The position numbers and the translations under genes are program-made. Positions 34,598 through 41,005 of a stretch of DNA of 43,229 bases are shown here, piece after piece (within the stretch, counting starts at the first letter, position 1; the number at the start of each line of letters is the position of its first letter). Source of the stretch: Erysipelotrichaceae bacterium. Its GTDB lineage: Bacteria > Bacillota_I > Bacilli_A > Erysipelotrichales > Erysipelotrichaceae. The notes beneath the pieces are model-generated. The model was not told the DNA's origin. It saw nothing but the letters and a program-made list of their open reading frames with translations, and ran no database searches. The stretch lies in contig JAQXQU010000104.1 in the NCBI GenBank assembly GCA_029101345.1, positions 1 to 43,229 of the forward strand, in the 5' to 3' direction.

Positions 34598-34945
34598 GGG
34601 GCTGTAATTGGTTTCGACGGGTCTGTGTTTGATTTTGACTGCAGTGGAGTGATGACCTAATCATCAAACAAAATTATTCGGCAATAACGAATTAGCTTTC
34701 GCGTAAATTAAGTCGACATAGACTTGCGAGCTTTCAGTAGCCAGGTTCATAACTGCTGATCGTATCCATGAACTAGGAAAAACAAGTTTCGTCCTATATC
34801 TTGTCATCCGAAAACCGAAAAGGCAAATTCAGTGTCAGGTTAGCCTATTCCAAAGGCACTGTCTTATGCAAATATAGGCTAAACTGTAGACGTTGAAATG
34901 TGGGGCCTCTCCCGGACGAGGGTTCGACTCCCTCCAGTTCCACCA
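34598..34945 (+). ncRNA. ssrA: tmRNA
   Basis: Transfer-messenger RNA for ribosome rescue with SmpB. The 5' GGGGCTG (34598-34604) pairs with the 3' CAGTTCC before ACCA, with two G-U pairs. The 5' side has the conserved GGTTTCGACGGG, and the 3' side has the T-loop GGTTCGACTCC; CCA is encoded. The likely tag frame resumes at GGC (34680) and reads GNNELAFA, then TAA at 34704-34706. The resume codon is inferred from the spacing and from B. subtilis, which also resumes at Gly. Several pseudoknot-like pairings lie between 34707 and 34880. Confidence 0.95.
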
Positions 34946-38249: not shown

Positions 38250-39872
38250 ATGTTCAAACTGATGCTCAAAAAGCAGCTCTTGTCTTTCAAGCTGTATTTC
38301 ACTTCCAATCCACGCACTAAAAAGAAAAGGACCTTGATGCAAAGCATAGGCTTTGCCTTGCTGGTGATTTTTGTCATTTTCTCCCTTGGCCTATCAATGT
38401 TTTTCATTGCCTTTTTGATGGCAGATAGCCTATTGCAGCCAGGCTTTATGGCTGGCAACCGCTTTGATTGGCTCTATTATGCCATTATGGGTGTGATGGC
38501 TATGATGCTAGGCATTGTGGGATCGGTCTTTACAACCTATAACTCCATTTATCGCGCTAAGGATAATGACCTCCTGTTGTCAATGCCAATCAAGCCTGTC
38601 TATATCATTGGTTCAAGACTATTCTCAATTGCCCTTTTGGCTATTATCTATAGTGGCATAGTCTATCTTCCAACGATCATCGTCTATTGGATTTTCAAGG
38701 GCATGACGATTCCAACCATTGTTCTGCCAATTGTCTTATGGCTGGTCAGCTGTCTGTTCATTGTTACAGTCTCCTGTCTTTTGGGCTATTTTGTAGCAAT
38801 CATTTCGGCTTTCTTCCCAAAGAACAATCTGATTACAATGGTTCTCTATCTAATATTCTTTGCCTTATATTTCTACTTTTGCTTCAACATGAATTCATTG
38901 CTGGAAGGATTGGTAGCTAATGCTGAGAATATTGGCAAAACCATTTCGGTCTGGATCTATCCTGTCTATCTGATGGCTTGCGGATCAGCCGGTGATATCA
39001 GATCAGCCGTATTCTATATTCTGTTAGTTATAGTGCTCTTTGGCATCTGCTGGCTATTGTTAAACCATTCCTTTATCAATATTGCCACCAGCAATCGTGG
39101 CGAAAGAAAAGTCAAATATGTTGAAAAGGATACCAAAGCCAAAGGTGTGATAGCAGCTCTTGTCAATAAGGAAACGAAACGTTTCATGTCTTCGACTACC
39201 TATATGCTAAATACTGGCTTGGGATTGCCGATGGTGCTGATTGCCTGTGTCATGGCAGTTATCAAGCGTGATGCCTTATTGCAGGTCAAGGACATGTATG
39301 TTTCCTTCTTCCCATTTGTTGAAGATATTCTTCCGGCAATTCTTGTTTCTTTCATCTGCATGATAGTTTCAACAACTGATGTTACAGCTCCATCAATTTC
39401 CCTTGAAGGAAAGAATCTCTGGGTATTAAGAAGCCTGCCTATCAAGACGGGGGAAATACTAAATGCCAAGGCCTACTTTGGCATTGCCATCAATGCAGTG
39501 CCTGTTATTGTAGCAAGCCTTGTTCTTGGACTTGTTTTAGGCATTGAGATTCCAATGATTGCCATCATAGCCGTTACTTCAATGCTATATGCCATTATGA
39601 CTTCCTATTTTGGTGTCATGCTTAATCTCTTAAGGCCATCACTTGATTGGACAAACGAGGTCCAGCCTGTCAAGCAATCAATCCCGGTCTTTGTTTGCCT
39701 CTTTGGTGGCTGGCTTGTCAGTGCAGCTATTGGCCTATGCGCCTTTTTCCTTAGAGATAGAATTAATGCCATTACTTATCTCACACTTGTAAATGTCATC
39801 CTGATTATCCTCTTCCGTTTGATTCGCCAGTGGATGATGACCAAAGGCGTTGAAATCTTTGAATCATTATGA
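38250..39872 (+). CDS. ABC exporter permease
   Basis: Large membrane protein of 540 aa with about twelve hydrophobic segments in two halves. The first half has FTTYNSIYRAKDNDLLLSMPI, and the second has LVSFICMIVSTTDVTAPSISLEGKNLWVLRSLPI, an arrangement seen in putative two-part ABC-2 permeases of Bacillota whose substrate is unknown. It is cotranscribed with the ATPase, has an AAAGAGG site, and overlaps the AlkD-like gene by 4 bp. Confidence 0.87.
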   Translation: MFKLMLKKQLLSFKLYFTSNPRTKKKRTLMQSIGFALLVIFVIFSLGLSMFFIAFLMADSLLQPGFMAGNRFDWLYYAIMGVMAMMLGIVGSVFTTYNSIYRAKDNDLLLSMPIKPVYIIGSRLFSIALLAIIYSGIVYLPTIIVYWIFKGMTIPTIVLPIVLWLVSCLFIVTVSCLLGYFVAIISAFFPKNNLITMVLYLIFFALYFYFCFNMNSLLEGLVANAENIGKTISVWIYPVYLMACGSAGDIRSAVFYILLVIVLFGICWLLLNHSFINIATSNRGERKVKYVEKDTKAKGVIAALVNKETKRFMSSTTYMLNTGLGLPMVLIACVMAVIKRDALLQVKDMYVSFFPFVEDILPAILVSFICMIVSTTDVTAPSISLEGKNLWVLRSLPIKTGEILNAKAYFGIAINAVPVIVASLVLGLVLGIEIPMIAIIAVTSMLYAIMTSYFGVMLNLLRPSLDWTNEVQPVKQSIPVFVCLFGGWLVSAAIGLCAFFLRDRINAITYLTLVNVILIILFRLIRQWMMTKGVEIFESL

Positions 39873-40585
39873 TCAAAGATGAATTATTCAAAAAGCAGGA
39901 TTTATCCTATCGGGAATTTACTGCTGTCTCAGTTCCCACTATCAATAAGGAAAGGATCATTGGTGTCCGAGTTCCGATTATCAGACAATTAGCCAAGGAA
40001 CTTAATAAAGAAGAAAAGCAGGATTTTCTCAAGTGTCTTCCTCATGAATATTATGAGGAAGACCTTTTGCATGTCATCCTGCTTAACAATATCAAAGACT
40101 ATGATGAAACCATCACTGCCATTGAAGAGTTCTTGCCTTATATCGACAATTGGGCTACTAATGATACCTTAAGACCTAAAAGTCTTAATAAAAGGCCAGA
40201 TAAGCTTCTTTTAAGAATCAAAGACTGGATTGCGACCGACAAGGAATATTATCTGAGATTCGCTGTCTCTTGCCTTATGCACTATTTCCTTAAAGAGAAT
40301 TATGATAAGGAACAGTTGAAACTGGTAGCTGATATTAAAAATGATGCCTATTATGTAGAGATGATGAATGCCTGGTATTATGCCACTGCTCTCATTGATC
40401 ATTATGATGACGTCATCATTTATCTAAAGAACAGCCTTCTTTCAATTGATGTTCACAATAAGACGATCCAGAAAGCAATTGATTCCTATCGGATCAGTCC
40501 AGAAAAGAAGGAATATCTAAGAAGCCTGAGAAGAAAAAAGGCTCGCCTTCAGGCAAGCCCCCAACAATTTCATTATAGCCTATAA
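39869..40585 (+). CDS. DNA alkylation repair protein (AlkD-like)
   Basis: HEAT-repeat-type protein of 238 aa. Family marks are IIGVRVPIIRQLAKEL near the start, then ALLHVILL-like EEDLLHVILLNNIK, and the DNA-base segment YIDNWATNDTLRP, with MMNAWYYATALIDHYDDV later. AlkD-type enzymes remove bulky or cationic N3/N7-alkylpurines without flipping the base. It starts within the permease stop (ATGA overlap) and has no clear ribosome site, so it relies on coupling. The last codons contain a hairpin that faces the other strand. Confidence 0.85.
   Translation: MIKDELFKKQDLSYREFTAVSVPTINKERIIGVRVPIIRQLAKELNKEEKQDFLKCLPHEYYEEDLLHVILLNNIKDYDETITAIEEFLPYIDNWATNDTLRPKSLNKRPDKLLLRIKDWIATDKEYYLRFAVSCLMHYFLKENYDKEQLKLVADIKNDAYYVEMMNAWYYATALIDHYDDVIIYLKNSLLSIDVHNKTIQKAIDSYRISPEKKEYLRSLRRKKARLQASPQQFHYSL
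40534..40559 (-). terminator. Minus-strand terminator inside the alkD-like 3' end
   Basis: Read on the minus strand: GGCTTGCCT, loop GA, AGGCGAGCC (one mismatch) and TTTTTT. On the plus strand no T run follows. It would stop antisense transcription coming from the 40.6-41 kb region. Confidence 0.6.
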
Positions 40586-40608
40586 AAAAATTAATTAAAA
40601 GACTTAAA

Positions 40609-40630
40609 ATGATAGCGCTTTCATTATATC
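40609..40630 (+). promoter_or_regulatory. Full-consensus cre site with weak -10
   Basis: ATGATAGCGCTTTCAT (40609-40624) fits the 16-nt CcpA consensus at every defined position. TTATAT or TATATC follows at 40624-40630 as a possible -10. No good -35 is seen. It would place the transcript below under catabolite control. Confidence 0.65.
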
Positions 40631-40676
40631 ATGAAGATGTAAAAGGAAGCAGAGCTTCCAAAAGGAGCAGAAGACG

Positions 40677-40701
40677 ATGAAGGAGATCCTGAAGGAAATT
40701 C
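40677..40701 (+). repeat. 25-nt motif, copy 1
   Basis: Starts ATGAAGGAGATCCTGAAGGA and ends AATTC. It is identical to 40852-40876, and the two copies start 175 nt apart. The surrounding bases are unrelated apart from a shared TGAT shortly after. Confidence 0.9.
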
Positions 40702-40706
40702 ATTGA
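40677..40706 (+). CDS. Micro-ORF 1 (MKEILKEIH)
   Basis: Nine codons and TGA, with AAAGGAG 9 nt upstream. The peptide is amphipathic and differs from micro-ORF 2 only in the last residue. It may be a translated peptide, a translation-sensing leader, or a by-product of an RNA motif that contains ATG and GGAG. Confidence 0.25.
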   Translation: MKEILKEIH

Positions 40707-40851
40707 TCTTCCAGCCAGCAGGAGCACTGGCCGGAAGTAAAGCCAGAATCCATGCAGAAAGTGAAAGCTCAGAGGACAGACCCAAAGACATAGAAGATAG
40801 ATGCACCATCAGGTGCAGATGGAAATATATATTAGAAAAGAGGCAATCAAC

Positions 40852-40876
40852 ATGAAGGAGATCCTGAAGGAAATTC
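40852..40876 (+). repeat. 25-nt motif, copy 2
   Basis: Identical to 40677-40701. It sits in the loop of a 9-bp stem with one bulged A. Confidence 0.9.
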
Positions 40877-40881
40877 GCTGA
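40852..40881 (+). CDS. Micro-ORF 2 (MKEILKEIR)
   Basis: Nine codons and TGA, with AAAAGAGG 8 nt upstream. The ribosome site lies partly in the 5' arm of the predicted stem and the stop in its 3' arm, so translation and folding would exclude each other. Confidence 0.25.
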   Translation: MKEILKEIR

Positions 40882-40965
40882 TGCCTCAGCTGAGCCCATG
40901 GCAGTATCAGCTGAGTGCAGCTTCACTGCCAAAGGAGACTAGACCAATGGACAGGATAATGACAA

Positions 40966-40992
40966 GGAGAGTTCAGTGAACTCTCCTTTTTT
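40966..40992 (+). terminator. Strong terminator of the 40.6-41.0 kb transcript
   Basis: GGAGAGTTC, loop AGT, GAACTCTCC, TTTTTT. It is strand-specific and separate from the gdhA terminator, which implies a real plus-strand transcript ending here. Confidence 0.92.
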
Positions 40993-41005
40993 ATATTGGA
41001 ATAAG

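Follow-up and report, generated by a model that had tools for sequence, protein, structure and literature searches.

A family of stand-alone RNA genes in Erysipelotrichaceae with putative micropeptide ORFs and a conserved fold past each stop codon

The window analysed here, a whole stretch of 43,229 nucleotides from an Erysipelotrichaceae bacterium, carries a terminator-bounded RNA gene at positions 40535-40994, which consists of two tandem modules. Each module contains a hairpin, a Shine-Dalgarno (SD) sequence, a micro-ORF of nine codons with its stop, and an H-type pseudoknot 1-4 nt past that stop. The RNA gene lies between a DNA-alkylation-repair-like ORF and a convergent gene for glutamate dehydrogenase. 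A sequence-only reading of this DNA had started the element at 40586; the gene begins about 50 nt further upstream, and its left end overlaps the final codons of the preceding ORF. A second copy of the gene is present in the same genome, at a contig end. Similarity between the two copies starts at 40535 and continues for as far as both are sequenced, they have a terminator (40956-40994) in common, and the ends of the cassette were therefore placed at 40535 and 40994. The DNA-alkylation-repair-like ORF (39869-40585) reads through the left terminator hairpin of the cassette, and its final codons are cassette DNA.

On the plus strand, a putative promoter for the RNA (TTAAAA-17-TATCAT, 40604-40632) matches the consensus weakly, has a homologue in relatives, the TGTTACTAT promoter, and holds a cre match in its spacer. 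The first module opens with hairpin P1 (GGAAGC AGA GCTTCC, 40645-40659; fold z -2.8), which covaries in relatives. An SD, AAGGAG (40662-40667), precedes the ORF MKEILKEIH (40677-40706), identified by the repeat match and by codon evidence from across the family. In the pseudoknot that follows (40708-40746), stem S1 pairs CTTCC with GGAAG and stem S2 pairs CTGGC with GCCAG; taken alone it reaches p 0.046, and the homologous position covaries in relatives. A degenerate copy of a 3' element, GAGGACAGACCCAAAGACA (40772-40790), was recognised by comparison with the consensus GAGGACAGACCAATGGACA. The second module comprises a hairpin supported by its fold and by a stem match (TGCACC/GGTGCA, 40802-40817; z -2.9), an SD (AGAGG, 40839-40843), the ORF MKEILKEIR (40852-40881), found by the repeat match and by the covariance model R1 described below, and a pseudoknot (40885-40931; S1 CTCAGCTGA/TCAGCTGAG, S2 TGGCAGT/ACTGCCA) with p 0.007. 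Both p-values come from 150 mononucleotide shuffles. The two pseudoknots have unrelated letters, and each lies directly past its own stop. They are followed by the conserved 3' element GGAGACTAGACCAATGGACA (40934-40953) and by an intrinsic terminator (40964-40994), which forms the right end of the cassette and is the right boundary of the second copy as well. Much of the sequence-only description is borne out by these features: the 25-nt repeat ATGAAGGAGATCCTGAAGGAAATTC occurs in exact copies at 40677 and 40852, with zero expected in shuffles, the several hairpins include the two given above, the plus-strand terminator is strong (40964-40988 plus a T-run), and both of the twin micro-ORFs have an SD.

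A nearly gap-free unit of about 105 nt lies upstream of every copy. Promoter elements on its minus strand are a -35-like GTCTGTTTTT and an extended -10 (TGnTATAAT); a conserved UGUUGGGG also lies there, as does a terminator hairpin with a U-tract. In the window this unit occupies 40534-40637 on the minus strand, with its -10 (TATAAT) and its terminator hairpin (40537-40562), faces the plus-strand promoter and folds at -16.7 kcal/mol (z -3.3); it matches the promoter model R2 at 50.7 bits, the window being among the 27 training rows of that model. A divergent, terminated transcript of 25-35 nt is predicted from the minus strand, UUGUUGGGGG in the window, and the 31 copies examined are predicted to share this arrangement, with a terminator directly after the promoter. 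Partial self-matches of the promoter unit occur on both strands, and it may serve as a common operator.

R2 was built from upstream promoter DNA as a sequence-only model, without ORF information, from 27 rows that include the window copy. At E <= 0.01 it matches 190 of the 316 genomes of the order, and in many of these E falls below 1e-9, although the matches near E 0.01 include chance ones and the weak ones could be due to chance. An even sample of the class gave 17 genomes with R2 matches at E <= 1e-4, 13 of them Erysipelotrichaceae. R2 also indicates a third, weaker locus in the window genome, with the ORF MKEILLNYH. In two genomes of one genus (L122 and L125) it matches a different repeated element. 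With the window excluded from its construction, the covariance model R1 finds both modules of the window (40818-40935 at 44 bits and 40644-40748 at 34 bits), the second copy in the window genome, and members in a second genus. Searching the genus at the DNA level placed the motif within a stand-alone RNA in many genomes, and the named records that carry it are mostly ruminant-gut Erysipelotrichaceae MAGs. The genus relatives usually have one module where the window has two; across the family the number of tandem modules ranges from one to four, the latter at L147. No Rfam 15 family overlaps the RNA at the gathering score, either in the window or in relatives, in agreement with the sequence-only statement that the layout belongs to no known RNA family. 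Nor was the family found described in the open-access literature searched by titles and abstracts. Thousands of candidate structured RNAs have been predicted in human microbiomes (PMC8040213), and the main text of that report makes no mention of Erysipelotrichaceae. At the level of genome sequence, these RNA genes form a family that is widespread in Erysipelotrichaceae and absent from Rfam.

The structure of the module was examined in 15 same-genus relatives (alignment A3), in which the order is hairpin P1, SD, ORF MKEILKEIH, stop, crossing helices, more hairpins and a terminator. The crossing helices of these relatives (S1 CTCATCG/CGATGAG, S2 TGATCAG/CTGATCA) and P1 comprise 20 pairs, of which 99.7% of cells are paired. 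Seven pairs have changed on both sides, with contributions from all three helices, so that both stems of the pseudoknot covary. The covariation score is 0.289 against 0.137 in shuffles, none of 500 shuffles reaching it, and when the partners were slid by 1-3 columns pairing was at most 51%. Beyond the genus, the fold past the stop has a median z of -3.0, and its first paired base lies a median of 2 nt past the stop. The pseudoknot is not evident in every genus under the search used (p 0.26 at L116, p 0.97 at L032). By comparison of sequences, the post-stop fold, a pseudoknot or hairpin that begins within 1-5 nt of the stop, has been kept while its letters changed across the family. A selected RNA structure had been proposed from the window alone, in the form of stems enclosing each 25-nt copy; selection is evident from the covariation in relatives, but it acts on the post-stop pseudoknot. 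The enclosing stems can be drawn, between the SD region and the post-stop arm, yet family-wide they reach -8.0 kcal/mol against -7.6 kcal/mol for non-cognate pairings. Sequestration of the SD by the post-stop arm was rejected on the same ground, cognate pairing being no better than non-cognate.

Among 40 R2 loci read, an SD and a micro-ORF come next in 31, and 26 of these 31 micro-ORFs encode peptides of the form M-K/R-x-I/V-L-L/K-E/N-Y/I/F, such as MKKVLLEY and MKEILLEI, with MRKILLNYK at a further locus, L108. MEPT... or MTPT... peptides account for the remaining five. The MKEIL peptide is therefore not universal: some loci of the promoter family have these other micro-ORFs or carry only the 3' element. 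One pattern match, L035, was excluded because it is an ordinary coding gene. When ORFs were collected by nucleotide similarity alone, each of the 11 differences of a single base between them was synonymous, where 19% are expected (p 1e-8). The 45 distinct ORFs of a set filtered by peptide pattern use six different codons for Leu5. Their third codon ends in G without exception and GAA encodes Glu7 throughout, which indicates an RNA-level constraint beyond the peptide. As far as sequence comparison can show it, selection acts on the ORF at the level of the peptide, and on that account the micro-ORF is very probably translated. A programmed frameshift or readthrough was rejected for want of a conserved extended frame beyond the stop: the numbers of open codons past it have medians of 9, 11 and 15 and minima of 1-2 over all frames, and no frame stays open.

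An RNA with a short ORF that includes Ile, Leu and Val codons, followed by alternative structures, could be a leader-peptide attenuator or a cis-regulator of the adjacent gene. This is very improbable, because no conserved downstream gene was found: the adjacent genes change from one genome to the next, and every RNA seen is closed by a terminator of its own. Attenuation of a neighbour is thereby largely refuted. Multiple copies and the absence of fixed neighbours in the genus, together with the predicted small divergent transcript, would suit a selfish repeat or a type I toxin-antitoxin pair, with a toxin micro-ORF and a divergent antisense RNA, but this is the least probable of the alternatives. 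Duplex energies between the divergent RNA and the micro-ORF RNA are not distinct from those of shuffles or non-cognates, and antisense action of the tiny RNA was rejected since its complementarity does not exceed that of shuffles. The peptide, of 8-9 residues, is polar. The second genus has several loci per genome, some of which keep orthologous flanks between species, and those loci were therefore inherited in place there. A phage, plasmid or IMG/VR origin was likewise rejected, as no match for the RNA gene was found in any of these sources.

It is also rather doubtful that the RNA acts in trans, as an sRNA or as a sponge of C-rich sRNAs or of the anti-SD, with micro-ORFs that serve RNA stability alone. 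Its stand-alone, multi-copy and terminator-bounded nature would be expected of such an RNA, as would its many GGAGG motifs and the conserved 3' element AGACCAATGGACA; a 3' element of consensus GAGGACAGACCAATGGACA is found in most family members. Near-exclusive synonymous change, however, is not predicted by a trans-acting role, and the tiny divergent transcript shows no cognate pairing with the RNA. The notion that AGACCAATGGACA is a second conserved ORF was given up because the codons past ATG-GAC are not conserved. The sequence-only reading had counted about a dozen GGA triplets and considered titration of CsrA; 14 are present against about 9 expected, a modest excess. Since the CsrA family was found in 0 of 64 genomes (61 relatives and three genomes of a second genus, one that carries the RNA), with positive controls, a CsrA sponge is refuted.

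Catabolite control had been suggested by the full-consensus cre at 40609-40624. The site itself is exact, on the minus strand, with 0.006 expected per window, but it is exact only in this copy and does not extend to the family as a trait: the other copy within the window genome departs from it at two positions, and 29 of 29 further copies checked have 3-6 mismatches. The best CcpA-like protein scores below its family cut-off. Any catabolite control is at most local to this copy.

A different physiological setting is suggested by the promoter unit, which lies directly upstream of hpf/raiA, the gene for a ribosome hibernation factor, in three genera (L149, L152 and L153). Among hpf loci from 22 genomes, it stands at positions consistent with an hpf promoter in several more. 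The hpf of the window genome itself has no such promoter, its start abutting the upstream ORF, and co-regulation with hpf is thus seen in relatives only. In Bacillus subtilis, the induction of hpf as cells leave growth depends on (p)ppGpp (PMC12421865), and from this we infer that the RNA is expressed together with hpf at nutrient limitation.

Taken as a whole, the locus is probably a micropeptide-coding RNA gene of a starvation or hibernation regulon, with the micropeptide as its likeliest product and the holding of ribosomes as the second candidate. The RNA would be transcribed at nutrient limitation alongside hpf. Its strong SDs would recruit ribosomes, which would translate the micropeptide and run up against the pseudoknot at termination. 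The pseudoknot might then delay release or recycling, shield each module from 3'-5' decay, or both, while tandem modules and extra loci would increase dosage. The peptide is favoured over the held ribosome on account of its amino-acid conservation and its multiplication in tandem modules. A more specific and tentative proposal is that the RNA forms a new arm of ribosome hibernation, in which an RNA with an hpf-type promoter brings ribosomes to tandem ORFs of 8-9 codons and holds them at the stop against the pseudoknot, or the conserved octapeptide acts on the resting ribosome, or both. The pseudoknot is positioned by the stop, and not by the start, in 8- and 9-codon ORFs alike, which would suit an RNA that parks ribosomes in starvation and whose peptide merely sets the stall; the strong multiple SDs, the SD-like 3' element and the hpf-type promoter point the same way. 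Parking as the whole function is nevertheless unlikely, as peptide-level conservation with free codon choice is unneeded for it and no stall peptide is known.

Dual-function sRNAs such as SgrS/SgrT, SR1/SR1P and RNAIII are stand-alone structured RNAs with a single, longer translated ORF. The window RNA resembles them in being a stand-alone structured RNA with a short ORF, and it has its own promoter, terminators and codon-level selection, its expression being predicted from sequence. It differs in that its ORFs have 8-9 codons, are in tandem and meet a pseudoknot or hairpin at each stop. In the IncI/IncL controls of the repY-repZ type, translation of a leader-peptide micro-ORF meets a pseudoknot. 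Translation of the window micro-ORF would meet one too, but here the RNA stops at its own terminator with no downstream gene. The raiA RNA (RF03072) is likewise a structured RNA linked to hpf/raiA; the present family is linked to that gene by a promoter type in common, and unlike raiA RNA has probably translated micro-ORFs and is not adjacent to the hpf gene. RF03072 gave no match in 61 genomes, in a search whose controls were silent too. A very short ORF near pseudoknots is also found in tmRNA, although the window RNA has its own SD and AUG, and tmRNA is a separate gene (34598-34945, plus strand, 92 bits).

If translated, ORFs of 8-9 codons, well under the lengths normally called by gene finders, would be among the smallest selected genes known, recurrent across a gut-bacterial family. 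The fixed register of the pseudoknot to the stop codon offers a testable case of structure acting on terminating ribosomes, and the promoter in common with hpf raises the question of what else cells make when they rest their ribosomes.

Identity with 6S RNA was rejected, as a separate 6S candidate lies elsewhere in the genome (43.8 bits against a cut-off of 46.4). Most genomes with the micro-ORF RNA gave no match to 6S RNA, and many members of the genus without the RNA were matched, as was the window genome; this uneven pattern may reflect divergence of 6S RNA.
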